From a virus, in the IMG/VR virus record IMGVR_UViG_3300047510_000938, positions 1-33,858 of that record: a stretch of DNA of 33,858 nucleotides, one strand, 5' to 3'. Both the position numbers and the translations under genes were made by a program. The notes below the pieces were generated by a model. The model was not told the origin of the DNA. It did not search any database and saw only the letters and a program-made list of their open reading frames with translations. Every line of letters begins with the position of its first letter. The stretch's first letter is position 1. Of this stretch, positions 12,821 through 32,187 are shown piece by piece.

Positions 12821-13324
12821 CTATAGTTTATCCATGTGATTCATTAGCTGTGAAACATTAAACTCAAGTTCTTCTAATGATCCATTATTGTCAATGGTAA
12901 AATCTGCCATCCATTGCTTAAGACTCATGCTACTAGGATCTTCTTTAGGAAGATGATCTGATCTGTCGACCCAAACTGCATAATCAAACACACCAGTATT
13001 CTGCATAGCAAAAAATTCACGCTTGTTGCGTAATCCGCAATAAATGTCGTGTGCCCGAAATATTTCTCTGCCTAAGCGACTTGCATCAGGAACATTATAA
13101 GCGCAGATAGCATCATACCATTCTGCTCTGTGATTGTGCCGGTCAGCATAACACTCTTCTTCATTATAATATCCATAACTATCCTTTAGCATATCAAAAA
13201 TAAAAAGTTTGCTACAAAACTGACTACTACTCTCAAAGCTATAGCCATATTTGTCGCGAAGCATTTCACAAACAGTGTCTTTGCCATGTCTGCCATGGCC
13301 GATTATCAGTAACTTTTTTCTCAT
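12821..13324 (-). CDS. Deoxynucleoside monophosphate kinase-like P-loop protein
   Basis: The family transfers phosphate from ATP to dNMPs to feed phage DNA synthesis. The N-terminus KKLLIIGHGRHGKDTVCEML has a P-loop GHGRHGKDT (residues 9-17) with the GKDT ending found in T4 gene 1 dNMP kinase, and the late segment DNNGSLEELEFNVSQL is like 'TNDGSLEELFSKI' of that enzyme. VWVDRSDHL (about 117-125) is a plausible strand and acidic loop. Length is 167 aa against 241 in T4, so it is a compact form. It is an early-type metabolic gene placed between neck gp13 and sheath gp18, in the same direction, 30 nt after gp13. No late box or Shine-Dalgarno sequence precedes it; an 18-bp palindrome covers its start codon. 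Another P-loop nucleotide kinase is possible. Confidence 0.75.
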   Translation of the reverse strand: MRKKLLIIGHGRHGKDTVCEMLRDKYGYSFESSSQFCSKLFIFDMLKDSYGYYNEEECYADRHNHRAEWYDAICAYNVPDASRLGREIFRAHDIYCGLRNKREFFAMQNTGVFDYAVWVDRSDHLPKEDPSSMSLKQWMADFTIDNNGSLEELEFNVSQLMNHMDKL

Positions 13325-15539: not shown

Positions 15540-17194
15540 TGCAATATTTTTATGACGGTCAGATACGCAGATATCTCACACAGATAGTTAGAGCATTCAG
15601 TAACTTTAGTTACCAAGATGCCGATGGCGATTTGCGTACTGTGCCAGTAATGTATGGTGACATTTCCAGACAGGTTGCTAGTATAATTCGAGACAACAGC
15701 GAAAACAAATTGCCCAGTGCACCAAGAATGGGTGTTTATATAACTGGCTTGCAATTGGATCGCAGCAGATTAAGTGATAGTAGTTTTGTAAGTAAAATAA
15801 ACTTGCGTGAAAGAGATTTTGACAGTGTTGCAGGCGATTATGGAACACAACAGGCCAAAGGCTATACAGTAGAAAGATTGCATCCAACACCTTATACACT
15901 GAGTATTAACATAGATGTATGGAGCAGCAGTACTGATCAAAAATTACAGATACTGGAACAGATCTTTATGTTGTTCAATCCAGACTTGGAATTTCAAACC
16001 ACTGACAACTACATAGACTGGACCAGCTTGAGTGTGTTACAAATTGAAAATATTAATTTTAGCAGCAGAACTATTCCAGTTGGAACAGAAAGTGAAATTG
16101 ATGTTGCTACACTAGGATTTACTGCGCCTATTTACATTTCGCCGCCAGTTAAGGTTAAGAAACTAGGAATTATTACAGACATTATTACTAGTATATTTGA
16201 TCGTGAAGCCGGCACTATTAGTTTAGAAGGATTTAATCCTCCTACAGATGGCAAGGCATGGAGTTCAAACGGCGTTACAGTACTTCCAGACGGTACTGTG
16301 GTTGATCAAAATGGCCTTACCATGACAGTTAGCAGTGGCAGCGGTAGACTGGATCTGAGTAGTCCTATTGTGGTAAGTTATAGAAATTTTGATCTTAGTG
16401 TGCAAAATGGTATTGCTAAACTGGTTATAAACAAAAAATTACGTTTAGGAGAGATCAACTGGCTTAATGTTCTTGAAGCAGAGGCTCCTGCAAAGTATCA
16501 AAATGGCATTAGTCAAATTCGTTTGTATAGAGTAGAACTAGGAACACCTATCATAGGTACCTTTACAATCAGCAATGATAAATTTGAAATGGATATAGAC
16601 TACGATATCGATACTTTACCCAGTGATACTGTTATTCAAGGACCTGCAAGAAACAATGGCAGTATTGATTTTGTAATCAATCCTATCACTTGGAACCCTA
16701 CAAGTTTTAAAACTGTAGGAGTAAGAGCGTTACTTACAGGACCTGTCGGTGGTAAGGTTGAAAGAAAATTTAATCTAACAGAAAAAACAACAAGAATTGA
16801 TACTGATGTAGATGAATCTATAGTTTATAGTCATCAAGTTTTTGTCAACGGAACACCAGTTGCTACTAACAGCAAAAACATAGACGACAAGTATGTTATT
16901 GAATTTGCTACAGCGCCAAGCATCAACAGCTCAATACGTTACGAACTATATCTCAACGAAGACGGTGCAGATGCTTGGAAAAACAGCAACGGCAGCGATT
17001 TTGTTGCTGACCAAAATGATATAGTTGAGTGGGACGGATCGCGATGGCATATTGTGTTTGATGCCAGCGAATCGACACAGATTGTATATGTTACTAATTT
17101 GACAACCAATCAACAGTTGTACTGGAACAAGTATTTTTGGCAGGCCAGTGTCGATGGATATTATCCAAGAGGTACATGGGAACTTGTGCTTTAA
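15539..17194 (+). CDS. 15: Tail completion / sheath terminator, T4 gp15-like
   Basis: gp15 caps the tube and sheath and joins tail to neck. The first 225 residues follow T4 gp15: YFYDGQIRRYLTQIVRAFSNF, RTVPVMYGD, LPSAPRMGVYITGLQLDRSR, and HPTPYTLSINIDVW followed by QKLQILEQIFMLFNPDLEF (about 118-152), then the paired strands LSVLQIENINFSS and IDVATLGFTAPIYISPPVKVK. At 551 aa it is twice the T4 length (272). Residues about 230-551 are an extension of beta-rich segments ending in VEWDGSRWHIVFDASES and YWNKYFWQASVDGYYPRGTWELV, resembling tail-fibre or adhesion-type modules. The ATG overlaps the gp14 TAA (TAATG), so the two are translationally coupled. Confidence 0.88.
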   Translation: MQYFYDGQIRRYLTQIVRAFSNFSYQDADGDLRTVPVMYGDISRQVASIIRDNSENKLPSAPRMGVYITGLQLDRSRLSDSSFVSKINLRERDFDSVAGDYGTQQAKGYTVERLHPTPYTLSINIDVWSSSTDQKLQILEQIFMLFNPDLEFQTTDNYIDWTSLSVLQIENINFSSRTIPVGTESEIDVATLGFTAPIYISPPVKVKKLGIITDIITSIFDREAGTISLEGFNPPTDGKAWSSNGVTVLPDGTVVDQNGLTMTVSSGSGRLDLSSPIVVSYRNFDLSVQNGIAKLVINKKLRLGEINWLNVLEAEAPAKYQNGISQIRLYRVELGTPIIGTFTISNDKFEMDIDYDIDTLPSDTVIQGPARNNGSIDFVINPITWNPTSFKTVGVRALLTGPVGGKVERKFNLTEKTTRIDTDVDESIVYSHQVFVNGTPVATNSKNIDDKYVIEFATAPSINSSIRYELYLNEDGADAWKNSNGSDFVADQNDIVEWDGSRWHIVFDASESTQIVYVTNLTTNQQLYWNKYFWQASVDGYYPRGTWELVL

Positions 17195-17208
17195 CAATAA
17201 TTATTTGT

Positions 17209-17640
17209 ATGAATAAGATTATTTGCAGTGGTGCCCTATTTTATAGTCTAGACACAAAACGTTTTTTATTGTTGCACAGAGCGCAAGGTAAAAAGGGCAA
17301 TCTATGGGGATTGGTTGGAGGAACCAACGAAAGTTGCGAAACTCCTTGGGAGGGACTTCGAAGAGAAATCGAAGAAGAAATTGGCTCTGTAATTATTAAA
17401 AAAACAGTACCGTTGGAAACATTTATCAGCAACGATGACCATTTTCATTTTCACACATATCTTTGCGTTGTTGAAAAAGAATTTATGCCAGCTCTTAACC
17501 ACGAACACAACGGATATAGTTGGGTAAGTTTTGGCAATTGGCCAAAGCCGTTGCATCACGGATTAAACAATACATTAAAAAACAAAAACAATACTCAAAA
17601 GCTAGAAACTGTTATTCAGCTTGTGGACATGATTGCTTAA
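17209..17640 (+). CDS. Nudix hydrolase
   Basis: Nudix enzymes cleave nucleoside diphosphates linked to another moiety (damaged dNTPs, ADP-ribose, dinucleoside polyphosphates). The Nudix box is nearly complete: it begins at the G of GGTNESCE, keeps the Glu six residues later, and has REIEEEIG seven residues after that, so the metal-binding REx2EE core is intact. The usual final aliphatic residue after the last Gly is Ser here. Substrate cannot be told. I start at the ATG at 17209 (143 aa, MNKIICSGALFYSLD) because the frame upstream lies inside gp15. It follows gp15 by 14 nt with no clear Shine-Dalgarno sequence. Its 3' end overlaps the oppositely oriented 871-aa gene by 29 nt. Confidence 0.9.
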   Translation: MNKIICSGALFYSLDTKRFLLLHRAQGKKGNLWGLVGGTNESCETPWEGLRREIEEEIGSVIIKKTVPLETFISNDDHFHFHTYLCVVEKEFMPALNHEHNGYSWVSFGNWPKPLHHGLNNTLKNKNNTQKLETVIQLVDMIA

Positions 17641-20227
17641 ACTGTTCTAACAGCCAATCAAAGTTGTTGATTTTTGCCAATGCTGCTTTATCGTCTTTAT
17701 TGACTTCGCCATAAGCTCTACCTGCTTGTGCGCCTGCTATTGCATATTCTCCAAACGGTTTATCGCTACCACGTGTACACCATGCATTGAGTCTGAATTC
17801 AGTTTCTTCAGCAATCTGTCTATCAATTGCTCTGCTTGCAAGTTTTGCACATTCTCTAAATCCACTACGCCATGCACTAAATGGGTCTGTGTTAAATGCA
17901 GTTTTGTTGCTCATTTCTGCAATAGCTTTGAAATTTTTACTAATACTGGTAGTCATGTCCGGACTGTTTACGTCTACTGTTTTGGTCAATTCAGTCGGTA
18001 GCAGTTTTACACCACCGTATCCGTACACTAGACTGTTTACAGGATTATAGCTGCGCCATACATAAACTGTACTACGACCATCAACATCGTATCGAGCAAT
18101 CTGATAATTAAAATCAAATGTATCTAGTATTTCAGCATCTCCATCTACTACCCAAAACATTTCAGTATCGCACAGATTTGCAGCGGCAATATGTGCTTGG
18201 TGAATACCTTTGACTCCGTGTACACGTTTAGCATGTGGATAACGTTGTTTTAACAAGTTATAGTTTTGGTCAGCATTGGGCTCATTGCTGCTGATAAACA
18301 CAATGTCATATGGCTTAGGTTGACTTACAACTTGATCGTATTCTTTTTTAATTGCAAAAAATCTATATTCTATTTCACGCTGGCTTAAAGTATTGTGTCG
18401 GTTAACCAAACTTACACCGTCATAGTATTCACCATTTTTCCAAACATGATTGATTTTTCTTTCATATTGATTTTGATAAGTTATATAAAAATCCCAATCA
18501 AAGGTTTTGTCAACAACAATATCATTGTTAATCATAAAAAACATTTCGTTATCAGTTTGTTCTAGTGCAGTTTGATACTCAGCGTAGTTGTTTACTGTAA
18601 ACACAGGATACGGTTTAGGAACACTTGCTACAATATCCCATTCTTTTTTCTTGATGTAAAATCTATGTTCAACTTCTTTTTCGCTAACCAATAAATGTCT
18701 ACTGAACAACACAATACCATCTCTGTGTTCTCCGTTTAAAAACACATGATTTATTTCTCTATCATATCTATTATGATGACTAAAATACAAATCAAATACA
18801 AAATTATCTGCAACTTTTACATCGCCGGGCACACCCCAAAACAGTTCACTGGTTGAATTATACAATGCATTGGTATAATCGTCATAGTTGTTGATGGTAA
18901 ATTTATCGTAAGGCTTTGGTTGGCTAGCTACAACCGGGTGTTCTTTTTTATCGATATAAAATCTATGTTCTACTTCATTTTTGCTTACTTCTACACTGGT
19001 GCTGTGTAATACAATTCCGTCATAGCTGTCTCGATTTAAAAACACATGTGTAGTATTTCTGTCCAGTACATTTGTTTCGCTAAAATACTCGTCCCAAAGA
19101 AATTCATCTGCAGGTACAGTATCACTGGGAATACCCCAAAACATATTTGTAGTGCTGTTCTTTTTTGCATCTAAATAGTCTTGATAGGTGTCTATGATAA
19201 ACCGTTCAAACTGTTTACTTTGACTCACCGATTGTTCGTGCTCTATCCTGTTTGCTAAAAATCTATATTCAATTTCTTTAGAAGTCACAGGGGCATGTTT
19301 ACTATACAATACAACGCCATCATACTTGTTGCCGTTTAACCAAACATGATTGCGTTTTCTCAGTTGACTTTGATGGTCAATATAATAATCGAAAATGCTG
19401 TTGTCCAGTATTAGGATGTCCTGCGGAACGCCCCAAAACATTTCGGTTGTGGTTTTTTCTAATGCTTCTAGATATTGTTCATAGTTGTTGATTTCAAATC
19501 GATCGTATGGTCGCGGGTTGCTGGCCATAATTCGTATTTCTTTTTTGTTAACAAAAAATCTATGAGATAGTTCTTTTTCAGTGGCACTATAACTTTTAGG
19601 AACAAGCGCAACGCCGTCTAACCTATCTACATTGCCGTTGCCAAACACATGCACAAAGTCTAGACTCCATTCATCTGGATCGTAGCTGAATTTAAAGGTA
19701 TCTCTTACTATAACATCGTCGTATACCAACCAAAACATATCAGTAATACTACGTTGTCGTGCCTGTTCAAAACTTTCAACTACTTGCAACGTTGGAAAGC
19801 GTTCTACTAGTTTACTGTGCGAAGTTCTATCGTTACCTATGTAAAAAATATCAAAACGCTCTTTTCCACAATAAACATCATAGTCTCCGCAGATATAACT
19901 GTGTTTGACTGTAGGATAATCACCTGGTTCTGTTGGAACAAGTTTTACTCTTCCCCAGTCTTTGATTTGTCTGCTCTTTTTGTAAACATATGGAAATACA
20001 TGCACAGATTTTTCTTGAGTTTCGCCGGGTCTAAAGTACCAAGGAAAGCTATCATAAACACGAATTGTAGGATCAACTACCCAAACAAATTCAGATGTTC
20101 CACGATAGTTCGAAACTTTGCTGTCGTCGTAAACAACAGGATATCTATCAAAGATGTGATTCTTTAAAAAGTCTTGTCCGTTGTGCAACGGTGTTGAAAA
20201 CCGTTCGAATCTGTCAATAGCTCTCAT
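17612..20227 (-). CDS. Tandem glycosyltransferase-like repeat protein (871 aa)
   Basis: Seven related units are spaced about 100-128 residues apart, each anchored by a (M/L)FW-type strand followed by an acidic turn: FVWVVDP (47-53), MFWLVYDD (164-171), MFWGVPQD (263-270), MFWGIPSD (362-369), LFWGVPGD (462-469), MFFMINND (562-569) and MFWVVDGD (690-697). Each is followed about 30 residues on by HVF/HVW (76, 193, 294, 394, 494, 594; YVW at 723), then a DG(V/I) strand, and in units 1-5 by (H/Y)RF(F/Y/L). Only the last unit keeps D-G-D-A-E-I, a D-x-D typical of GT-A metal/nucleotide-sugar binding, plus a nucleotide-binding-like start (FISSNEPNADQN) and the acceptor-side segment up to about 815. 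The gene overlaps the upstream glycosyltransferase by ATGA. Interpretation: a multi-unit GT-A-like protein with one probable active site; substrate unknown. Confidence 0.8.
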   Translation of the reverse strand: MRAIDRFERFSTPLHNGQDFLKNHIFDRYPVVYDDSKVSNYRGTSEFVWVVDPTIRVYDSFPWYFRPGETQEKSVHVFPYVYKKSRQIKDWGRVKLVPTEPGDYPTVKHSYICGDYDVYCGKERFDIFYIGNDRTSHSKLVERFPTLQVVESFEQARQRSITDMFWLVYDDVIVRDTFKFSYDPDEWSLDFVHVFGNGNVDRLDGVALVPKSYSATEKELSHRFFVNKKEIRIMASNPRPYDRFEINNYEQYLEALEKTTTEMFWGVPQDILILDNSIFDYYIDHQSQLRKRNHVWLNGNKYDGVVLYSKHAPVTSKEIEYRFLANRIEHEQSVSQSKQFERFIIDTYQDYLDAKKNSTTNMFWGIPSDTVPADEFLWDEYFSETNVLDRNTTHVFLNRDSYDGIVLHSTSVEVSKNEVEHRFYIDKKEHPVVASQPKPYDKFTINNYDDYTNALYNSTSELFWGVPGDVKVADNFVFDLYFSHHNRYDREINHVFLNGEHRDGIVLFSRHLLVSEKEVEHRFYIKKKEWDIVASVPKPYPVFTVNNYAEYQTALEQTDNEMFFMINNDIVVDKTFDWDFYITYQNQYERKINHVWKNGEYYDGVSLVNRHNTLSQREIEYRFFAIKKEYDQVVSQPKPYDIVFISSNEPNADQNYNLLKQRYPHAKRVHGVKGIHQAHIAAANLCDTEMFWVVDGDAEILDTFDFNYQIARYDVDGRSTVYVWRSYNPVNSLVYGYGGVKLLPTELTKTVDVNSPDMTTSISKNFKAIAEMSNKTAFNTDPFSAWRSGFRECAKLASRAIDRQIAEETEFRLNAWCTRGSDKPFGEYAIAGAQAGRAYGEVNKDDKAALAKINNFDWLLEQFKQSCPQAE

Positions 20228-20808
20228 AGTAGATTTGCCTTAATTCCAAAATGTGCAAGTTGAATATCTGCATCCACATACACTTCTATTCCGTGATGCA
20301 TTGCTTGATTGCAAAAATATATATCTTCGCCGCCGTAGGTATCTAGAGTTTTGTTGTATTCATGTGCAAACCAAGGCTTTGGTAATTGTTCAAATACCGA
20401 TCTCTTAACCAGCATACATCCCATTCCTACGGCCCAAACCGGATGTAACCCTGTGCGAGATTCTAATCTCAGATCAACATTTTTAGAATCAAGAAATGCT
20501 ACACTACGATATGGAGGATATCTAGTACTGTAATTTGCAGCAACTATATCTCGATCGTGTTTTAAAAAACGATCAATAATGTTAGCAGGAAAATGCATGT
20601 CGCTATCAAGCCATAGCAAATGTGTAGCACCAGTGTCTAGTGCTTCATTTGCTAATCTTGTTCTTGATTCTGCAATAACACTTCCACATACTACATGTAA
20701 TTCATAATCAATGTTATCTCGAGTAAGCCTGCCGGTTAGGTTAGCAAGACTTACAGCAAAATTAGTGTGTAGTGTATCGTGTGCAGGTATACAAATACCT
20801 ATGCGCAT
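20224..20808 (-). CDS. GT-A glycosyltransferase (family 2-like)
   Basis: It probably transfers a sugar from a nucleotide-sugar donor. The N-terminus MRIGICIPAHDTLHTNFAVSL is a nucleotide-binding beta-alpha start, followed by SRTRLANEAL (48-57) and the metal-binding D-x-D in HLLWLDSDMHFP (63-73; D68 and D70). GMGCMLVKRSVFE (128-140), GGEDIYFC (159-166, with E161-D162 as a likely catalytic-base pair) and a late AHFG (185-188, metal-ligand-type His) complete the family-2 pattern. At 194 aa it is a minimal GT-A domain without a membrane anchor. Its TGA overlaps the ATG of the 871-aa GT-like gene (ATGA), so the two are made together. The position just after the tail-fibre gene suggests modification of virion proteins, but DNA or cell-surface targets are not excluded. 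Confidence 0.85.
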   Translation of the reverse strand: MRIGICIPAHDTLHTNFAVSLANLTGRLTRDNIDYELHVVCGSVIAESRTRLANEALDTGATHLLWLDSDMHFPANIIDRFLKHDRDIVAANYSTRYPPYRSVAFLDSKNVDLRLESRTGLHPVWAVGMGCMLVKRSVFEQLPKPWFAHEYNKTLDTYGGEDIYFCNQAMHHGIEVYVDADIQLAHFGIKANLL

Positions 20809-20809
20809 A

Positions 20810-21193
20810 TTATACCATTGTGTTTGGAAGTGTTTCTGCGTTTAGATCTTTTTCTGCATCGATTGTTAATTTGTTCCAAATACGTGCTGAACCGGATGCA
20901 ACCTTGACACATTCTTTGAAGTCTTCGGCGCCAAGGCTAGCCATTGCAAGCATGTTTTCAGGTTGTACTTTACCGATTGTTAGCAAGTCTGCGCCTGCTG
21001 CACGACCAAAAGTTTGAATCCAATGATGGCGATCATCGTCTGTTGGAATGTCCATTGCTTCAATAGCTGCACGAACTTGTGATTCTAGTTCCGTGCCTAA
21101 CAATGGCGCAATAATATCCACTACCGACAATTTACGTGCCTTTGTGTGTTCGTTTGCTAAATCTACGTTTAGTACTTCGTATAAGGTTTTCAT
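20810..21193 (-). CDS. Small late protein of unknown function (127 aa)
   Basis: Function is not recognised. The protein is helix-rich and acidic, with segments ARKLSVVDIIAPLLGTEL, VRAAIEAMDIPTDDDRHHWI, ENMLAMASLGAEDFKE and a polar tail. There is no signal peptide, membrane segment or known motif. A clear AGGAG lies 8 nt before the ATG, supporting the start. It is 1 nt upstream of the glycosyltransferase start, so it belongs to the same operon, and it follows the 60-aa gene by 11 nt. It could be a fibre-associated chaperone or a small virion protein; there is no direct evidence. Confidence 0.75.
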   Translation of the reverse strand: MKTLYEVLNVDLANEHTKARKLSVVDIIAPLLGTELESQVRAAIEAMDIPTDDDRHHWIQTFGRAAGADLLTIGKVQPENMLAMASLGAEDFKECVKVASGSARIWNKLTIDAEKDLNAETLPNTMV

Positions 21194-21465: not shown

Positions 21466-24400
21466 TTATTTATCCAGTAATTTTTCTACCATTGAACGTA
21501 GTTCATCGATTTGATTTTGTTGAGCTTTAAATGCCTCGATAAATGCACCTGCCATAGCACCATAGTTAACAGTTTTAATACCATCCTCTGTGGTGTGTAC
21601 AACTTCTGGGAAGTACTGTTCGATTTCTTGAGCAATAACACCCATATGTCTAGTTTCTTTATCTTCTAGATCTTTTCTCGTAAATGTTACACCGCGAATA
21701 CTTAAGATTTTGCTTAGAGGATCTGCAATAATTTCGATGTTGTCTTTTAAATTACAATCTGAGAATGCTGTAATTTCGCCTGTAGCAGTAAGATTACCTG
21801 TGGTTCTAGCAAAAGTAAATCTTGTTGTTGTATTATCTCTGATAAAGAGATCGCCGGTATAATGGTCAATAAATGTGTTTGTTCCGTTATGATAGAAACG
21901 TGTATCTGATCCTGTACCTAATCTCAGTTCAATGTTGTCACTAAATGTTAATGTGCCACCGACAATGTCTGCTACATCGCTGCGTAAGAAGCTAGTACTG
22001 TCGATACTATCCAGTGTATTAGCATTATCAGCAGTAATACCAGTTAATCCGCTACCATTACCAGTAAAGTTAGTGGCTGCTATGTTGCCAGTTATATTAA
22101 TACTGCCACTACCAGATAGTGTTCCGCTAAACGTATCGTTAGCATCACTGCGTATGAAGCTACCGCTATCTAAGCCATCGACTGTGTCTGCATCTAGCCC
22201 GCTACCAGTACCATCGTTACCAGCGTGCCACACTGTATGAGAGGCGTTAGTTACATTTTCATAGAATGTAAGTCCAGTTAGTCCACTGCCAATATCTAGT
22301 CTTTCGCTAGTAGCATCACTGGCAATACGCATTGTGCCGCCGTTTACATATTGGATGTATCCACGTCTTGTAGCACCTTGGTAGAACCCAATAAACGGAC
22401 TACCAGTAGCACTAGTATCAGAGAACTGCATTTGTTCACCGCTAAGACTGGTTGTAATCAGTCCAGTAACAGTATCAGCAGCATCACTGCGTACAAAACT
22501 ACCACTATCTAGGCTATCAAGTGTATCAGCATTAACATTGGTTAATCCACTACCATTACCGGTAAATGTATCAGTGCCAATGTTGATGTTGCCAAATCCG
22601 CTAGTGATTTCGCCTTGATTCAGAGCACCTGTGCCTGTTAAGTTACTGTAGATACCACTAATACGACCATTTGGTACAGTTCCGCTGCCTAAATTGGTTG
22701 CATTTAAAGCTTGTATTCCGGCGCCATTTGCAGTATTTAGACTGCCTGCATACAAGTCTCCTACTACACCCATGCCGCCGCCTACACGCACTGCACCGGT
22801 TGCTGTTGTGGTTGCTGCGCTAGTATCACTGAATGTTTTGATACCTTCCATGGTTTGGTTACCACCTAATCTAGCACCAGCAACTGTACCGCTGCTCAAG
22901 TTGCTTGCGTTTAGTGTGGTTAAGCCACTACCGTTACCTGTAAATGTATCTGTGCCGATATCGATGTTGCCAAAGCCACTGGTAATACTACCTGCATTGA
23001 GTGCTCCGGTTCCAGTGATACTCAATTGATGCTGTGTAACACCAGTTGCTTGGATACGTGCATCTGGTATAGTTCCACTTGACAAATTGCTGGCATTTAG
23101 TGTTGTAATACCACTACCGTCACCTGAGAATATACTGGTTCCGATGTTGATATTACCAAATCCTGTGTTGATACTACCAGCATTTAAAATACCTGTGCCT
23201 GTAATACTCAATTGATGCTGTGTAACACCAGTTGCTTGAATACGTGCATCTGGTATAGTTCCGCTGGTTAAATTACCTGCATCCATGTCGCCGATGAAGT
23301 TGTCTGCACGTATATCTTTGTTTACATACAATCCACCGCTGATCTTAACTGCGGCACTACCGCCAGCAAATGTTGAACCAGTTGCGTTTGTAGCATCCGT
23401 AAATGTTACAAGATTGTTTGATGCAAGAGTAGTAAATGCACCACTACTTGGAGTTGTATTGCCAATTGGTGTATTGTTGATTGAACTAACAAACAGTTGG
23501 CCGTCGATATACATATCTGCATTTGTGCGTAGATCCAGTCTAACAATAACTTCTGGATTAACCTGTCCTGCTAGTACAGCGGCAGCTTTGGTTTCACCTA
23601 TGGTCATTTGTCTTGCTGCTTGACCAAATGCAATGTTGGTTGCATTGTCTTTGAGCAAGTTAAATGTGCCAGTTTCGTCTGTATCAAGTGTGTTACCATT
23701 TACAAACAAGTTGCCTGCAAGGTTAACATTTGCATTAGCAATGTTAAAGTTACCAGTTGCTGCACCCATGTTAATTGTAGTTGCAGCACCAAATGCATTT
23801 ACAGTAGTTGCACCAGTGTTAGCAAGAGTAAATGTACCACCGCTAACACTTAGATCACTGAGTCCTCCAATCTGTAGATTACCGGTCACTGCTAGATCGT
23901 TGTTGATAGTGGTTGTACCACTTGCAGCACCAATACCAATTGTGGTACCTGCACCAAACGCATTAACAGTTGTGGCATTAGTGTTGAAAACATTAAAAGT
24001 TGTGCTACTAGTGCTTACACCACTTGTGAATGTTGGATTGTTTTGGAATACTAGAGCACCACTGCCGGTTTCGTCGCTAATTACTTCTGCTAACTGAGCC
24101 GATGTAGTTGCAGCAAATTGACTTAGTGGGTTACCAGTAATAGCAAGAGTGCCACTGGTCGGTAGTGTTATGCTAGTATTACCGGTGGTTGTTAATCCAA
24201 GACTATGCGCACCAGTGTGTGTAAAGTTTCCGCCAAGTGTAATAGTTTTGGTTCCATTGTTTACACCAGTACCGCCATATGTTGGTGATATAACAGTGCC
24301 TTGCCAAGTACCAGTTCCAATAGTTCCTACACTTTGAAGACTACTATTAACAACGTTTGTACCAAGTGTTGTACTGCTTAATACACTAGCATCGTTGATA

Positions 24401-27400
24401 AAATATGCCTTGCTGCTTGCAAGATTAAAATCTTCGCTTGAATCAAACGCAGTGTTTACACTATCATATGTTAGTGTGGCATTTGCACCATCAATGGTAA
24501 TACCTGCACCGTTTGCTGCGGTTGCATTTGCTGCACCACTTGCAAGAACAATATTAAGATCGTCCACAGTTAGTGTTGTACTGTTAATAACTGTAGTGCT
24601 ACCGTTTACAGTTAAGTCTCCGGTAACAACTAGATCGTGTCCAATAGTAGTTGTGCCACCGCCATCACCACCTGTACCAATGTTGACAGTTGTAGCAGCA
24701 CCACCGATATTGAGTGTTGTTGCGTTTGTGTTGATTAAGTTAAAGGTAGTTGCGTTGGTTGTAATGTCGCCGCCGTCTACGTTTAGATCTAAGTCAATAT
24801 CAACATTATTATGTATAGTTGTTGTACCAGTAGCAGCGCCAATCTCTACAGTGGTTGCAGCGCCGCCCATATTAATAGTTGTTGCTGTGGTATCTAGTAG
24901 ATTAGCAGTTGTTTGATTAGTACTAATGGTACCACCGTTTGCTGCAATCTCACCAGTAAATGTTGCTTTACCGCTGGTGTCAATTCTTACTCGCTCAGTG
25001 CTTGTATGTTGAATGTCGCTTGTGGTACTTACTGCGCCTGTTTTGATAACAACGTCACCGCCTGTTGCATTACCAGTACCAATGCCGCCTTCAATTGTTA
25101 ATGCACCACCGGCAATATCAGTACCTACACCGTCGCCACCTTTGATAATTGCATTTGTTGGAGTTGCACTTGTTTCGGCAGTACCGAACACAACTTTGGT
25201 ATTTCTAATAACCATGTTATTATCTATACTCAATGTACCAGCAATTACGTTTAATGGGTTGGCTGTTACGTTTGCATCAGTTCTAATTGTAAAACTAGTT
25301 GCATTAAATGTTGCACCAACCACTGGCCAACTGCCGTTGAGATTAGTAATAGCACTACTAGCAATGTTTATTGTGTCGCCTACTTTAACACCTATGGTAA
25401 ATGGTGTATATGTAAATGTTAAACTTGTGCTGTTGAGAATAGTACCAGTTGTAGGATTGCTTAGATAAATGAAATCGTCAGTAACACCGCTAACTGTTGT
25501 ATTTGACGGAATACTGCCGCTGCCTGTAACAACCATACCTGCAAGAATATTTGCAGTGCTGCTCATCGGAACTTCGGTATCGCCGTTGGCTGTTAGAGCA
25601 TTGGTGTTTACAACAACATTAGCAAGATTTACAACCACGTCTTGGCTTGCTGTAGCTTCGTAACTTCTTGCAAAAGTCAACAGTGAACGAGTTGCAGTAC
25701 TGCTGCCTATTTTGATGTTTGTAGCCGCGCCACCAATCTCTAAGCTGGTAACGTTTTCGTTGTATAGACTCCCACTACCTGTGCTCCTCGAGGTAAGTTT
25801 TGCAGATCCAACGTCAAGTCCTTCTGACAGATCTAATGCTGTACCCCATTCAGGAACAGTTCCGTTTGATTTTAGGAACGCATTGTTTCTACCTATATTT
25901 AAGGTGTTAAGAGAACCTGTACTTTGAGCGTAGATTAAATCGCCTACTGCATAAGTAGTAATGTTTGTACCACCTCTTGTAACAGGCACTGGACTGGTTA
26001 AGTTAGATGGATTGAGGAAGAATGCACTGTCAAGTCCATCTAGTGTACCAGCATCAACTACGCCATCTTTGATAAACACTTCGCCGCTGCCGTCTGTGTT
26101 AACATTAAACTGTGTTTGTAAGAATCTGCTGGTTCCTAGTGTTGAGAATGTTCCTAATGGATCAAAATCGGTATTGGCAATGCCAATGTTAACTGGATCG
26201 CCGTAGAATTCGCCACCTACACTGCTACCAGTTAGAGTAATTGGGTTATCGACAGTGTTTGCTTTTTTCAGTGTTTGAACAACATTTTTATAGCTGCTAT
26301 CACCAAACAATGCTGTATCACTGTTTGGTATACCAGTTGCACCCAATCTCGAAGGTGATACTGTGCCACTGATAATGTTGCTAGCATCGATGTTGGTTAC
26401 TGCTAAACTGTTCCAGTTAACTTTAATACGACTGGATGTGTTGACAACAGCATTTATCTGTACGTTGTTTCTAATAAACTCTGCACTTCCGACACCTGTG
26501 CCGTCTATGTTTTGAGCATTGGTTACCAGACCATTAACACTGCTTAGTGCATCTGATCTCAATTCGTGTAGCGTAAAACTGCTTGTAGTAACACTTCCTA
26601 CAAAGAATCTACTACCGCTTGGTATTGCAGTGCCGCCTACACTCGGTAACGCATTCACCGACGAGCCGTCATCAAGGCTAAGTATTCTCACAGCATCGCC
26701 GGTGGTATAACCGTGATTCGCTACAATAATACTGTTGTTGGTTAGGTTAACTGTGAATCTTGTAATGTTGTGATTGTTGTTTGCCGGAGTACTGGTAAAC
26801 TCAACAATATTCAACAAACTAAAGTCTTCGTACAATTCTATGGTATTACCGTCAATTGGTTTTGCATAGTATATACTGTTATTCAGCAATCCGCCAATAG
26901 GAACATTACCCAGTGTTGTATATGTTACAGGATTGCCGTTACCTAAACCGTGTCCAGGAATTGTGATTCTATAGGTAGTATAGTTAACTGCGCCGCCGGC
27001 ACCTACATCACCTGCTAGGAAGTTATGACTGATAACGTCGTCTAGATTGACGGTCTTGCTGGTAGTGATTGCAAGATTATCTTCCACAAAGTCAACGCTA
27101 CTTGCGCTGGCAATAAACAATTCGCCACCAAGAATATCAACATAGGCACGTTTTTCAATTGCAGTAACTTCAACTTCAAAGCCACTGCCGGTGCCTCCTA
27201 TATTAGCAGCACTTGCACTGAGCAAATCGCCAACAGCATAGCCTGTGCCGCCTCTTCTTAGGTCAACGTCGGTAACTTGGCCTGCTGTAACGGTAATATC
27301 TGCCTTGGCACCAGTTCCTACGCCAGTGGTACTGGTTAAAGACACGTTACTGTATGTCTTACTACCAGTAACCGGAGTATACAAGCTACCACTGCTAATA

Positions 27401-30400
27401 TTAGCATTATCAACGTTGGTTAGAACCCCGTATCTAGTTTCTGTAACAGCACCTTGCGCATTACCGTCAGCACTGCTTACAATAGTTCTAGCTGTAGCAC
27501 CTGTTACTGCTTTGGTGCTTTCGTTATCGCCATTGTTTGCAATAGTAAATGTAACACCAGTTGGTGTGCTTAATACTAATCCGTTGCGAGTATAAGTTGT
27601 GTCGCTACCTACAATAATTTGTACATTATTACCAACATTAAAGTTGTGAGCGCCACTGGTTGTAATAGTAGCAATATTACTGCTTCTTGCAACGTTGGTT
27701 ACTGTTGCACTGGTAAATGTATAAGTGCCGCTGGTATCTAATATTAGATACTGACTAGTGTTTGAACTACGCAAGAAGAAGTTATCTGTTATAGCACTGC
27801 TCGACCCTTTACTGTCCGGACGTACTCCGCTATCCACACCGTTGACGAATAGATTAGGAGCACTTACACCAGTTTCCCATGGATCGCCTGTGCTGTCTTC
27901 GTTGTCGTCCCATCCACCAGTAAGGCTAGCTACAAGAATATTTCCACTAGAACTATATGATCCTTTAGCATAACCTGTAGCACCTGTAATGCCAGGCTGT
28001 GTAATTAATGCACCGTCTGTGGCTGTAATATTGCCACTTAGTGTAAGTTCTACTTGCTCGTAATTTTCAGTACCAATGTCACCTGCTTTTAAGTCAACTG
28101 CTGGAATTTCGTCAACTTGTTCAAGTCTAGAAAGATATCCAGGAGTATTGGTGTTAGTAAACTGGCGTGTTGCTGGAATCAAGTCTGGATTAAGCTGACC
28201 GTTGGTGTTGAGCTGAACAATAGCACCCGGCACCGCCGCAGTACTAACTGATTTGTCAACAAAGCCGCCTAGTCTGTTACTGATAAAACTACGTACAGCT
28301 AGCTGAGTAGATAATCTAGCATCGCTTGGTCCGCCAATTTCGTCATCGCCTAGATTAACGTTTGCAGATATTTCTTCAATAGCAACATCAGACAGACTTA
28401 GACGTAGTGCATCAAGTTCGTCCACCTGCACTCTGTTACGGAAGGTAATGTTACCAGTTCTGTTAAACGCTGTAATAAAGTCACCGACCTTAAAGTCACC
28501 AAGTTCGTTAGTACCCGATGAGTAAACACGACCAGGTAGTTCTTCAAACTGTTCAAATTGTGCTCTGGTGTTACCGCCGTTCTGTGGTAAAGCGTTATAG
28601 TCTGTACCAGAACCTGCATATTCCCAAGTGTGTGAAGAACTGTTAACAATACTTGGTCTATGGAACCAACACTGCTTTTCCAATAGATTAATTAGGTTGG
28701 TCAAGCTACTACTACCGTCTGTAGCAGTAATTGAGAAGGAAGCTGTGCCTAATCCTTGTCTTGATGCTGCTTCGTTAACACCTATACTAGTGTTAGGACT
28801 ACCGGCATGATCGCTGGTAATAGTGCTGGTTTCGTTAAACTGAATTCTCAACAAGCTGCTGCCTACAGCAACCTGTTCGATACTAACTGTTAAGCGGCGT
28901 TCGCGAGGTTCCCAGTCTTGTACAATAGCACTATTGTTATTACCGCCAGTTGTGCCAGTAATTGCACGTCCTGGCACAAATTCATAGCTTTCTGCGCCCG
29001 ATTCTAATATTAGAGTTTGATATGTTTGGTGCGAACTCAATATTTCTTCAACAAAGAACTCAATAACACCTGATAAGAATTTTTGTGTTCCTACTCCGAC
29101 TGCAAGGACGTTAACGTTAAATAATAAAGATTCGTCAAATGTTAGACTAAATTCATCCTCGTTAACAATTTTAATATAATAGGTTTGTTCCGGGTCTAAA
29201 CCGCTAACGATTGTACCTCCGTCGTTGTCATAGATCACACGTTGTCCGTTGTTGAATCCGTGTCCTACAATTGTAAAAATATTGGTTGCAACATTGACAT
29301 CTGTAGCGGCATCAAATGTTGTTTCAACAGGTGCTGATTTGAAGCTGTTGGTAATATCGCCTTCTGAACTTACTTCAGTTGGATCTGGAAGATCTGTGGG
29401 ATCATTTATAATAGTTGTGACAACGTCAAACTTTCCGCCAACAAAATTTTGAACTCCTGCGCTTAGATTGGTAATGTAAGTTATTGCTTCTGTTTTTGCA
29501 AAGTTGATGGCTGCAATAGTTTGTAGTTCTTGACCGCTGATGCTTATTCTACTACTGTCTTGTAGATTTCTAGTGTAGTATGATAAACCTGCACTGCGTG
29601 AATATCTATTACCAGTATCCCATGTGTCTTTTGCCACAGCTTCAACAATCAACTGTGTATCTCTGTTGCATTTAGCTTGATCGTATATGAAGCCGTACCA
29701 AATGTTGGCTTGTATCTGCTCATTGATATACTGTGTAACTCTTTGACTTATGTTTATCTGCCCAGTAGTTGATAGATTTACAGTTGCATCAGTAACAAAT
29801 GTTGGATTTACCCAGCTAGTGCCTGGTTCAATTTTTGTTAATCCTGTGCCATCAGCTGTGATAAAGTCAATAATCTCTTGTATTCTGGCACCAGCAAAAG
29901 TAATACTTTCTGCACTCCCTGGTGTTCCACTGGTGTCTTGTGTGCTGGTATTACCTGCAGTTTTTGTAACCAGTGTTTCAGCAATGACCTGTTGTATCAC
30001 TTCTTTTAATCTTACATATGATGCAAGTGTTTCTTCTTTTTTACCTGAGCCATACTGTGCAATTGCTCCAACAAAGTATGCAACAGCAGCATTAAATGTT
30101 TCTAAGTTGCCGCCATATGTTAGATCATAGATTAGGGCATCTATTACTAATCCAGTGTCTCTACGGCATTTTGCTGCGTCATAGGAGAATCCAGCAGTAT
30201 ATGGGTCGATATTGTTGGCTACTTGGAATGCAATCCAAGCGTCAATTTCATCTTGCATAAATGTTTTGTTTGCAATTATCTGAGCTCTTGCATCGCCGTA
30301 ACCAACTAGATAGCTGGTGTTGTAATCAGTTGGATCTGGGAATACATATGCATCAGCAACTGATCCTGGTGCAACTGTACTGCTACCGTTTTCGATGATA

Positions 30401-32187
30401 TCGATTATTTCATCCCAAAGTAACCCTGCACGAGTTTTCATTGTGCTGTCGCTGAGAGCATTTACAGTAAATGTTTTTGCTTGAGTATACGCAGCCAGTG
30501 TTTGATCTTTTTGCAAAGTAATAACATTATTTGCATTTGCTCGCCAGTAGGCTAATCCTGCGTTAACTGTTCTATAGTTAGCATTAAACATGATGTCCCA
30601 TTTGATTGCATCTATAATCAATTGGACATCTCTGGCACACTTGGCTTCGTTATAGGTAAATCCTGCCCAGATACTCGGTGTTGCTGCGCTAACCTGTGAG
30701 TTAATATAATTTACAGTTGCAGTAGCAATTAAATCTTTTGCCAATAACAACTGTGTATAAGCACGTTTGTATGCAGGATCTCTAAATCTTAAAACGTATT
30801 CTTCAACAGGAGTATCACGATTGATACCAACAATAGTTATTGTTTGCTTGCCTTCTGAAGAACCAGTGGAAGTAACAAACGCCCGATCAAAATCAAATGC
30901 TTTAGGCGAATAACCCGAACTTCTTAAAGCATACAAGCCAAAGTTTGTTGCACTGTTAGTGATAGAACAATAGCCGCCTGATTGACAATAAACACCGTTA
31001 AGCAAAAAGATTTGGAAACAGCTAACAATCTGAGCATAAGCATCGTTTGTTAAACGCCAACCGGTACCGCCGAAGCTGATATGTGTAAAAGCGTTTGCAA
31101 CCATTGACTTACCTTGTTCTGGTACACCTCCGATTGTTGGATTTTCTGCTTCAATAGCATTGATAGGAACGTTTGGAGATTGAACTTTTGTACCGTCAAT
31201 TTTAGCACCATTCATTCCTAAGAAAGAAATAATACTAGTGTTCTGAACGTAGGGAGATGTAGTAATAGTTGGACGAGTATTTGGCAGATTGGTATAACCT
31301 GTTCTGTCACATGCAGGATCAAATGGATCATCAAAAGCAACAGCATAATCGGCTTGAACAAGTGGAACAAAGTTTGCGTCAACACCGTCGCGGAATGTAA
31401 ATTCACCAAAGTAACATGCATTACGCACACGTAGCATGTCGAGGTTGGCATTTGCAGGACGGATAATACATCCTCTTAAACCGTCGCCTTTGATAACAAC
31501 GTTATCTGGAACAATTACAGGATTGTCTTCTGTATAATCGCCGACTGCAACTTTGATGTTAATGCGCTTAAAATTAATTGTGGTGTCAGCATTGTATACT
31601 AACCCAGATGCAATTTGACATGCACGCTTAATAGTCTTAACTGGCGCACTCTGACCATCATTGGCATCGTCTCCCTGTTCTTGGCTAACGTAAACAACGT
31701 TGCCGCCAAAAATGTCAGGGTCATTAAAGAATAATTGTCCGTTAGCGTTTATTGCTAGAACTTGACCATTGGTACCGATTCTGCTAGGAAGAGTCATTTG
31801 ATAACCACTATCAAGTGTATTCGGAGCCTTTAATGTAACACCGTCTTCGCCGGATGCAGTAAGTTCTCTAAAAGTAAGAGTTCCAGCATCTTCGATATCA
31901 ACGTTATTTTTAAAGTTAAAACCACCTGCTTCGGTTACAGTAAGTTGTTCAACACCGTTAACATCAATGCTAACCTGCGCCTGACTACTATCGCCAGCAT
32001 CACTAACTAGAACCTGTGTATCGTTTTCAAAGACACGCTTGGTAATATCTTGAACTGTGTTGTCATCGCGTAGCAGGAACACTTTACCATCTGCTGTGTT
32101 GATTGCCAATTCGCCTGATTCAAGTTGAGAAACTATCGGCTTTTTGCCGGCCACTGCACTACGCTTGTGTTTAATTCTTGTCGCCAT
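21466..32187 (-). CDS. Giant tail-fibre protein with C-terminal peptidase S74 chaperone domain (3573 aa)
   Basis: Likely host-recognition fibre. Order: a tail-protein N-terminus (MATRIKHKRSAVAGKKPIVS, GELAINTADGKVFLL); a pectate-lyase-like beta-helix from about 165 (VYVSQEQGDDANDGQSAPVK) to about 430; three helical repeats with AKC-x-RD (Cys near 517, 674 and 840); several HG(F/L/Y)xxG-type beta modules (about 970, 1742, 1820); six copies of an NATT(I/V/L)N-x-GGAATT-type motif between about 2150 and 2850; GSGLTTLNASNLSSGT-type repeats (about 2950-3240); three LDS-x-SF(L/V/I)RSD fibre repeats (about 3226, 3339, 3396); and an S74 domain from S3476-D-C-N-L-K3481, with the Ser/Lys dyad and MGVIAQEIEQYFPEVV. 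S74 domains trimerise the fibre and then cleave themselves off. A strong AGGAGG lies 8 nt before the ATG. No frameshift is seen across 10.7 kb. Confidence 0.93.
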   Translation of the reverse strand: MATRIKHKRSAVAGKKPIVSQLESGELAINTADGKVFLLRDDNTVQDITKRVFENDTQVLVSDAGDSSQAQVSIDVNGVEQLTVTEAGGFNFKNNVDIEDAGTLTFRELTASGEDGVTLKAPNTLDSGYQMTLPSRIGTNGQVLAINANGQLFFNDPDIFGGNVVYVSQEQGDDANDGQSAPVKTIKRACQIASGLVYNADTTINFKRINIKVAVGDYTEDNPVIVPDNVVIKGDGLRGCIIRPANANLDMLRVRNACYFGEFTFRDGVDANFVPLVQADYAVAFDDPFDPACDRTGYTNLPNTRPTITTSPYVQNTSIISFLGMNGAKIDGTKVQSPNVPINAIEAENPTIGGVPEQGKSMVANAFTHISFGGTGWRLTNDAYAQIVSCFQIFLLNGVYCQSGGYCSITNSATNFGLYALRSSGYSPKAFDFDRAFVTSTGSSEGKQTITIVGINRDTPVEEYVLRFRDPAYKRAYTQLLLAKDLIATATVNYINSQVSAATPSIWAGFTYNEAKCARDVQLIIDAIKWDIMFNANYRTVNAGLAYWRANANNVITLQKDQTLAAYTQAKTFTVNALSDSTMKTRAGLLWDEIIDIIENGSSTVAPGSVADAYVFPDPTDYNTSYLVGYGDARAQIIANKTFMQDEIDAWIAFQVANNIDPYTAGFSYDAAKCRRDTGLVIDALIYDLTYGGNLETFNAAVAYFVGAIAQYGSGKKEETLASYVRLKEVIQQVIAETLVTKTAGNTSTQDTSGTPGSAESITFAGARIQEIIDFITADGTGLTKIEPGTSWVNPTFVTDATVNLSTTGQINISQRVTQYINEQIQANIWYGFIYDQAKCNRDTQLIVEAVAKDTWDTGNRYSRSAGLSYYTRNLQDSSRISISGQELQTIAAINFAKTEAITYITNLSAGVQNFVGGKFDVVTTIINDPTDLPDPTEVSSEGDITNSFKSAPVETTFDAATDVNVATNIFTIVGHGFNNGQRVIYDNDGGTIVSGLDPEQTYYIKIVNEDEFSLTFDESLLFNVNVLAVGVGTQKFLSGVIEFFVEEILSSHQTYQTLILESGAESYEFVPGRAITGTTGGNNNSAIVQDWEPRERRLTVSIEQVAVGSSLLRIQFNETSTITSDHAGSPNTSIGVNEAASRQGLGTASFSITATDGSSSLTNLINLLEKQCWFHRPSIVNSSSHTWEYAGSGTDYNALPQNGGNTRAQFEQFEELPGRVYSSGTNELGDFKVGDFITAFNRTGNITFRNRVQVDELDALRLSLSDVAIEEISANVNLGDDEIGGPSDARLSTQLAVRSFISNRLGGFVDKSVSTAAVPGAIVQLNTNGQLNPDLIPATRQFTNTNTPGYLSRLEQVDEIPAVDLKAGDIGTENYEQVELTLSGNITATDGALITQPGITGATGYAKGSYSSSGNILVASLTGGWDDNEDSTGDPWETGVSAPNLFVNGVDSGVRPDSKGSSSAITDNFFLRSSNTSQYLILDTSGTYTFTSATVTNVARSSNIATITTSGAHNFNVGNNVQIIVGSDTTYTRNGLVLSTPTGVTFTIANNGDNESTKAVTGATARTIVSSADGNAQGAVTETRYGVLTNVDNANISSGSLYTPVTGSKTYSNVSLTSTTGVGTGAKADITVTAGQVTDVDLRRGGTGYAVGDLLSASAANIGGTGSGFEVEVTAIEKRAYVDILGGELFIASASSVDFVEDNLAITTSKTVNLDDVISHNFLAGDVGAGGAVNYTTYRITIPGHGLGNGNPVTYTTLGNVPIGGLLNNSIYYAKPIDGNTIELYEDFSLLNIVEFTSTPANNNHNITRFTVNLTNNSIIVANHGYTTGDAVRILSLDDGSSVNALPSVGGTAIPSGSRFFVGSVTTSSFTLHELRSDALSSVNGLVTNAQNIDGTGVGSAEFIRNNVQINAVVNTSSRIKVNWNSLAVTNIDASNIISGTVSPSRLGATGIPNSDTALFGDSSYKNVVQTLKKANTVDNPITLTGSSVGGEFYGDPVNIGIANTDFDPLGTFSTLGTSRFLQTQFNVNTDGSGEVFIKDGVVDAGTLDGLDSAFFLNPSNLTSPVPVTRGGTNITTYAVGDLIYAQSTGSLNTLNIGRNNAFLKSNGTVPEWGTALDLSEGLDVGSAKLTSRSTGSGSLYNENVTSLEIGGAATNIKIGSSTATRSLLTFARSYEATASQDVVVNLANVVVNTNALTANGDTEVPMSSTANILAGMVVTGSGSIPSNTTVSGVTDDFIYLSNPTTGTILNSTSLTFTYTPFTIGVKVGDTINIASSAITNLNGSWPVVGATFNATSFTIRTDANVTANPLNVIAGTLSIDNNMVIRNTKVVFGTAETSATPTNAIIKGGDGVGTDIAGGALTIEGGIGTGNATGGDVVIKTGAVSTTSDIQHTSTERVRIDTSGKATFTGEIAANGGTISTNQTTANLLDTTATTINMGGAATTVEIGAATGTTTIHNNVDIDLDLNVDGGDITTNATTFNLINTNATTLNIGGAATTVNIGTGGDGGGTTTIGHDLVVTGDLTVNGSTTVINSTTLTVDDLNIVLASGAANATAANGAGITIDGANATLTYDSVNTAFDSSEDFNLASSKAYFINDASVLSSTTLGTNVVNSSLQSVGTIGTGTWQGTVISPTYGGTGVNNGTKTITLGGNFTHTGAHSLGLTTTGNTSITLPTSGTLAITGNPLSQFAATTSAQLAEVISDETGSGALVFQNNPTFTSGVSTSSTTFNVFNTNATTVNAFGAGTTIGIGAASGTTTINNDLAVTGNLQIGGLSDLSVSGGTFTLANTGATTVNAFGAATTINMGAATGNFNIANANVNLAGNLFVNGNTLDTDETGTFNLLKDNATNIAFGQAARQMTIGETKAAAVLAGQVNPEVIVRLDLRTNADMYIDGQLFVSSINNTPIGNTTPSSGAFTTLASNNLVTFTDATNATGSTFAGGSAAVKISGGLYVNKDIRADNFIGDMDAGNLTSGTIPDARIQATGVTQHQLSITGTGILNAGSINTGFGNINIGTSIFSGDGSGITTLNASNLSSGTIPDARIQATGVTQHQLSITGTGALNAGSITSGFGNIDIGTDTFTGNGSGLTTLNASNLSSGTVAGARLGGNQTMEGIKTFSDTSAATTTATGAVRVGGGMGVVGDLYAGSLNTANGAGIQALNATNLGSGTVPNGRISGIYSNLTGTGALNQGEITSGFGNINIGTDTFTGNGSGLTNVNADTLDSLDSGSFVRSDAADTVTGLITTSLSGEQMQFSDTSATGSPFIGFYQGATRRGYIQYVNGGTMRIASDATSERLDIGSGLTGLTFYENVTNASHTVWHAGNDGTGSGLDADTVDGLDSGSFIRSDANDTFSGTLSGSGSINITGNIAATNFTGNGSGLTGITADNANTLDSIDSTSFLRSDVADIVGGTLTFSDNIELRLGTGSDTRFYHNGTNTFIDHYTGDLFIRDNTTTRFTFARTTGNLTATGEITAFSDCNLKDNIEIIADPLSKILSIRGVTFTRKDLEDKETRHMGVIAQEIEQYFPEVVHTTEDGIKTVNYGAMAGAFIEAFKAQQNQIDELRSMVEKLLDK
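21467..21474 (-). promoter_or_regulatory. Late promoter GATAAATA nested in the giant fibre stop
   Basis: The last codons GAT AAA TAA (Asp-Lys-stop) form the late box, as in gp16. It is 79 nt upstream of the 60-aa gene and would drive the small-gene/glycosyltransferase operon, with the hairpin 21442-21460 in the leader. Confidence 0.5.
23018..23076 (-). repeat. Direct repeat copy A within the fibre gene
   Basis: A 59-nt stretch matches 23204-23262 with one mismatch, an offset of 186 nt (62 codons). It encodes part of the GTIPDARIQATGVTQHQLSI segment. Surrounding codons also repeat with lower identity, indicating a recent in-frame duplication of a fibre module. Confidence 0.85.
23204..23262 (-). 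repeat. Direct repeat copy B within the fibre gene
   Basis: Partner of 23018-23076, with 58 of 59 bases identical by eye. The only difference is at a third codon position region (TGG against TGA on the plus strand) and is silent or near-silent in the protein. Confidence 0.85.

Follow-up and report, generated by a model that had tools for sequence, protein, structure and literature searches.

Phage proteins that appear to join a single GT-A glycosyltransferase domain to an arm of inactivated duplicates of that domain's fold

The DNA analysed here (the window) is the whole 33,858 nt of IMG/VR record IMGVR_UViG_3300047510_000938, a 33.9 kb record of an uncultured virus. It carries the structural region of a T4-like type of myovirus, with genes for a terminase, a tail sheath, a gp15-like protein and a very large tail fibre. 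Among cultured phages, PA5oct-like Pseudomonas jumbo phages have the nearest terminases (55% identity), and for this reason an origin from a SAR11 myophage was set aside. Between the neck and sheath genes, at 12821–13324, the window also encodes a 167 aa protein that resembles dNMP kinases (phrog_139, phrog_38514).

The locus under study lies mostly on the minus strand and starts with the gene for a 3573 aa tail-fibre-like protein (21466–32187, minus strand), whose C-terminal end, judged by eye, resembles an S74-type intramolecular chaperone. This gene is directly upstream of p127 (20810–21193, minus strand; phrog_1409), which encodes a 127 aa protein of unknown function, and p127 is followed by GT194 (20224–20808, minus strand; Anp1 / phrog_1574), which encodes a 194 aa glycosyltransferase (GT)-like protein. 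The stop codon of GT194 overlaps by 4 nt, as read from the coordinates, the start of the gene for an 871 aa protein, P0001 (17612–20227, minus strand; ATG at 20227, stop codon at 17612–17614), so the two genes are possibly translationally coupled. A NUDIX hydrolase gene on the plus strand (17137–17640) is convergent with the gene for P0001.

P0001, hereafter the array protein, is built of seven units, and homologues with 57–82% identity were found at 26 loci of viral contigs, some of them truncated by contig ends. In the 7-unit clade the gene order fibre, p127, GT194, array and NUDIX is conserved, with the NUDIX gene kept as the array's neighbour. GT194 and p127 are each present at 21 of the 25 loci, a set that includes loci ending at contig edges. 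The family belongs to uncultured aquatic phages, and in this phage the cluster lies beside the tail-fibre gene. Pelagimyophages have a tail-fibre island that is described as a cluster for host recognition, with glycosyltransferases and, in some of these phages, radical-SAM cassettes (PMC7029224).

The seven units, all encoded on the minus strand, differ in length and completeness. Unit 1 (residues 1–124; 19856–20227) is truncated and divergent, occurs in the 7-unit clade only and begins with a stretch (residues 1–23) modelled at a pLDDT below 50. Unit 2 (residues 125–239; 19511–19855) is GT-A-like; it has the first beta-alpha-beta element, lacks the C-terminal helical part and carries YDD in place of the DxD motif. 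The middle units that follow are shortened GT-A-like units, namely unit 3 (residues 240–337; 19217–19510), unit 4 (residues 338–437; 18917–19216), unit 5 (residues 438–537; 18617–18916) and unit 6 (residues 538–637; 18317–18616). The protein ends with unit 7 (residues 638–871; 17615–18316), predicted to be a complete GT-A domain with C-terminal helices and the sole candidate catalytic unit.

An earlier reading made from the letters alone (the sequence-only reading) had proposed seven related units with anchors at residues 47, 164, 263, 362, 462, 562 and 690, each followed by HV(F/W) and then DG(V/I), and these positions are exact. It had also described units 2–5 as almost evenly spaced and shortened. 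The even spacing holds (steps of 99, 99, 100 and 100), but the shortened units are units 3–6, which measure 98–100 aa, with unit 2 intermediate at 115 aa. A strand said to be common to the first and last units is present as VKLVPTE (94–100) in unit 1 and VKLLPTE (740–746) in unit 7.

In Smith-Waterman comparisons against 200 shuffles, pairs among units 2–6 gave z scores of 19–43 and unit 7 gave 7–12 with units 2–6, while unit 1 was weakly related to the others (z = 0.5–8). Profile-profile comparison of a middle unit with unit 7 returned a probability of 95% (E = 2.6e-8). On these alignment scores the repeats of the array are far above chance, in agreement with the proposal of seven related units, of which unit 1 is the weakly related one.

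No family scored above cut-off when P0001 and unit 7 were compared with Pfam, PHROGs and NCBIfam, and the GT2-like matches of array proteins were all sub-threshold. A Pfam match to DUF568 (E = 0.034) was below the cut-off and was discarded. Unit 7 had no match by sequence in the PDB, and weak PDB sequence matches of residues 208–295 to TFAM (E = 0.03–0.05) were taken as chance. When the array, unit 7, another array and p300 (a paralogue described below) were searched with tblastn against 50,697 cultured-phage records, no significant match was obtained, and hydropathy gave no transmembrane segment in the array protein. Searches of mostly open-access literature turned up no phage GT arrays of a tandem or degenerate kind, and a GT with an arm of its own inactivated copies has apparently not been described before. 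The array protein represents a widespread family of predicted phage enzymes that is absent from standard family libraries.

AlphaFold2 modelled the full array protein with a mean pLDDT of 86 and a pTM of 0.56, a value that leaves the overall shape of the array not fixed by the model; units 5–6 modelled alone reached a pLDDT of 95 and a pTM of 0.83. Unit 7, taken from the full model, matches many GT-A enzymes with Z scores of 9–11 over 130–140 residues. Among these matches are B4GALNT1, with a Z score of 11.2 and an rmsd of 2.8 across 141 residues, as well as WrtF, ThuS and the PBCV-1 capsid GT. As modelled, unit 7 has a Rossmann-like alpha/beta/alpha GT-A fold. In the units 5–6 model each unit singly superposes on GT-A enzymes (Z = 5–6.7 over ~96 residues, rmsd ~3) and also matches GT-A-like nucleotidyltransferases, unit by unit. 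The middle units look like a trimmed GT-A core, an assignment that, with Z scores modest when taken alone, leans on sequence homology to unit 7. According to the secondary structure of the model, a middle unit has no counterpart of three parts of unit 7, namely the first helix, the second strand and the C-terminal helices, and unit 2 retains the first helix and second strand that are missing from the middle units. Structure prediction and structure search thus bear out the earlier suggestion that the units share a fold with one another and with GT-A enzymes.

The sole near-full-length structural relatives found were two BFVD entries, A0A6J5LK21 (804 aa; E = 1.4e-38) and A0A6J5L5L5 (1076 aa; E = 4.2e-35), both from uncultured Caudovirales phages and both named ‘Uncharacterized’. 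These modelled proteins probably belong to the array family, though the structural alignment gives only 16–17% identity. Our searches yielded no characterised homologue with a role other than the one suggested from the sequence.

As the sequence-only reading had noted, the sequence D-G-D-A-E-I (residues 695–700) is confined to the last unit of the array protein. Both Asp residues of its DxD motif (D695-G696-D697; 18137–18145, minus strand) are invariant in unit 7, where the motif is present in 54/54 array copies and 77/77 stand-alone copies (131/131, near-duplicates included). The first Asp occurs in none of 203 middle units and none of 49 unit-2 copies (near-duplicates included), and the second is present in all unit-2 copies and in 123 of the 203 middle units. 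Of the 22 copies of unit 1, 19 have the first Asp, and the second position is variable. Invariant in 32/32 aligned unit-7 sequences is F790-R-E792-C793 (17849–17860, minus strand), which lies in the helix after the sheet and is a candidate for the region of the catalytic base, an xED motif in helix alpha-F of GT-A enzymes. The YGYGG sequence at residues 735–739, in which G736, G738 and G739 are invariant across all aligned sequences, is a candidate G-loop; a C-His was not identified in unit 7. Taken with the fold, the DxD motif makes it likely that unit 7 is a GT-A glycosyltransferase that transfers a sugar. Some GT-A enzymes function without a DxD motif (PMC7185993); units 2–6 are missing the C-terminal helices besides the first DxD Asp, and they are very likely non-catalytic.

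The arm is not a relic. Estimates of dN/dS are ~0.02–0.26 in every unit, unit 7 alike, for pairs with usable divergence. A less redundant set of 90 middle units shows no variation at H494, G504, L507 or E518; in this set E529 is conserved in 98% and R522 in 93%, and the sequence of unit 7 differs in the stretch that holds E518, R522 and E529. The non-catalytic units are kept by purifying selection and have invariant residues of their own, which rules out decaying pseudo-units.

Unit 7 also occurs as a stand-alone protein of ~220–240 aa, which is abundant: a scan with one such sequence found relatives encoded by at least 600 IMG/VR contigs. The loci examined were the best 80 of these at least 600 contigs, and among them stand-alone unit 7 makes up the majority and outnumbers arrays. 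That the stand-alone form is commoner among the loci fetched suggests that the arm is dispensable for basic function, and since the catalytic unit often exists without an array, the array would be an accessory rather than the core of the activity. Known forms comprise bare unit 7, unit 2 joined to unit 7, arrays of 4, 5, 7, 8 and 12 units, and split arrays. Four full-length members among the homologues of P0001 have ~240 extra residues C-terminal to unit 7, and such an extension was noted at loci L016, L020, L021, L023 and L025.

Many of these forms share a conserved slot, in which two GT8-like genes, p200 and p300 precede the unit-7 or array gene and radical-SAM genes often follow. The tallies of radical-SAM, GT8-like and p200 genes rest on profiles built for this analysis; radical-SAM identity is backed by Pfam or NCBIfam for several proteins, and the GT8-like label comes from sequence inspection, Pfam giving no match. 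The p300 protein is a ~300 aa paralogue with a DADN motif, encoded upstream of the unit-7 or array gene in many loci. Directly before it, again in many loci, is p200 (5517–6116 in L127, and relatives), a ~200 aa protein with no match in Pfam or PHROGs. Depending on the phage, the same slot holds bare unit 7 or 2, 4, 4+2 (split), 5 or 8 units, and in slot arrays the DxD unit is always last and single. The 12-unit array has a different setting. Split arrays (L104 and L112–L116) consist of two ORFs with an overlap of ~25 nt, and three distinct sequences have the break in the same position.

The middle units of L127 are 83–94% identical in DNA; in this type of comparison the last middle-unit row of L118 was left out because free end gaps gave it asymmetric values. 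Judged from DNA that is 94% identical, some middle-unit copies are recent duplications. In the 7-unit clade middle units group with those at the same position, whereas in other members they group with those of their own protein, on few columns and with many forks unresolved. The copy-number series, the clustering and the 83–94% DNA identity together indicate repeated changes in the number of units, with one DxD unit kept throughout at the end of the array. The sequence-only reading had the array growing by internal duplication between units 1 and 7. Internal duplication is upheld, but arrays in other phages lack unit 1 and open with unit 2, which places the duplicated block between units 2 and 7. 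In many phages the predicted enzyme has acquired, ahead of its single active domain, a string of shortened and inactivated copies of its fold that number from one to eleven. Such a natural series in one genomic slot (bare unit, 2, 4, 5 and 8), with a 12-unit form elsewhere, makes the relation of repeat number to acceptor reach or product length directly testable.

Several known proteins resemble the array in part. GT-A enzymes such as B4GALNT1, WrtF, SunS/ThuS and the PBCV-1 capsid GT are like unit 7 in fold and DxD motif; the array protein differs from them in its arm of inactive units and in having no family-level sequence match (Pfam, PHROGs, NCBIfam, PDB). OGT and SPINDLY have the same layout, an N-terminal repeat arm followed by one C-terminal catalytic domain. 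The repeats of OGT are helical TPRs, however, and its catalytic part is GT-B, whereas the array has alpha/beta repeats that stem from its own catalytic fold, and its catalytic unit matches GT-A. These differences rule out an OGT-like identity, and the array offers an example of a repeat arm made by copying and inactivating a catalytic fold. The full array model also matches K4CP, the E. coli K4 chondroitin polymerase (2z86), in Foldseek, and K4CP likewise has more than one GT-A domain per chain. Both GT-A domains of K4CP work, whereas the array protein has the DxD motif in one unit only, and a K4CP-like polymerase with two intact GT sites is ruled out on that ground.

These observations are consistent with a model in which one GT-A glycosyltransferase is served by a non-catalytic arm of duplicated, inactivated modules that position an extended acceptor, a reading that we judge to have an even chance of being correct. 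Unit 7, at the C-terminus, would be the single working GT-A domain and would transfer the sugar. Units 2–6 would be inactivated relatives of unit 7 that have lost its C-terminal helices and first metal-binding Asp, units 3–6 would also have lost the first helix-strand pair, and unit 1 would be a further-reduced, weakly related unit. Selection would retain this string of modules as an arm that binds or positions the acceptor for the one active site, in the manner of the OGT layout, and tandem duplication and loss of a middle unit would vary its length. Binding of the acceptor by units 2–6 is about as probable as its opposite.

As acceptor, tail fibres of phages and surface glycans are the most likely candidates. 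That it is the tail fibre in particular is a tentative suggestion, the link to the fibre being one of position, and phage GTs may act on DNA or host glycan instead. Glycans have been reported on capsid and tail-tube proteins of mycobacteriophages in work cited in PMC12619734. A further step would be an ‘accordion’ glycosyltransferase, in which the copy number of inactivated modules determines how far the enzyme reaches, or how long its product is, on the tail fibre or a surface glycan. We consider this unlikely; if true, unit duplication would let phages tune host recognition fast.

A processive, scaffold or ruler role had been suggested in the sequence-only reading. The alternative that the arm is a molecular ruler, which sets product size or acceptor reach so that glycan length or fibre spacing would follow the number of units, draws on the range of 1 to 12 units among relatives with a constant catalytic unit and on the confident placement of adjacent middle units relative to each other (pTM 0.83). 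Glycan synthesis offers a precedent for such control in WbdD, which regulates the length of O-antigen chains (PMC3482155), although WbdD is a kinase/methyltransferase, unlike the GT array, and could be a functional analogue only if unit number controls product length. Unit number is nevertheless identical in all full-length members of the 7-unit clade, and split arrays fit a single continuous ruler poorly, which makes this reading rather unlikely.

Inactive units might instead act as a chaperone or scaffold that holds partners such as GT194, p300 and the GT8-like proteins in a complex. Other GT-like genes are adjacent and conserved, and COSMC (C1GALT1C1), a GT-A relative that was retained after losing its DxD motif and catalysis, assists T-synthase (PMC7185993). 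COSMC is a separate chaperone protein, however, whereas the array units are fused to the active domain. In the 7-unit clade neither p300 nor GT8-like genes came up in the vicinity of the array, so partners would vary by clade while the unit signature stays constant, and we regard a scaffold as quite unlikely.

The position of the array gene between tail-fibre and tail genes would also suit a structural or adhesive virion protein, in which degenerate GT-A units would serve the tail as modules that bind carbohydrate and unit 7 would be vestigial. This is very unlikely given that both DxD Asp residues and further residues of unit 7 are invariant, that stand-alone unit 7 adjoins sugar-nucleotide and radical-SAM genes, and that it is also found in an apparent bacterial chromosome. 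Sugar modification of phage DNA, rather than of protein or surface glycan, is highly improbable: viruses are known to encode GTs for hypermodification of DNA (work cited in PMC12619734) and the window encodes the dNMP-kinase-like protein, but the gene context is one of tail fibre and glycan synthesis, and base-modification genes were not recognised within the window.

Among 84,980 prokaryote genomes, relatives were found at 7 loci only, all in metagenome-assembled genomes. One of these loci appears to be truly chromosomal: it lies on a Bdellovibrionia contig that carries p300 and unit 7 followed by a radical-SAM/SPASM (twitch) gene, with MoxR, DUF58 and S49-peptidase genes around them. The trio of p300-like GT, unit-7 GT and twitch/SPASM radical-SAM genes is seen in Bdellovibrionia metagenome-assembled loci L137 and L139, and in it the phage module may have a cellular relative. 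Other family members have UDP-glucose dehydrogenase and radical-SAM genes nearby. A 382 kb IMG/VR contig (L132) has fourteen radical-SAM genes within ~30 kb around its 5-unit array, a density unusual for a virus record.
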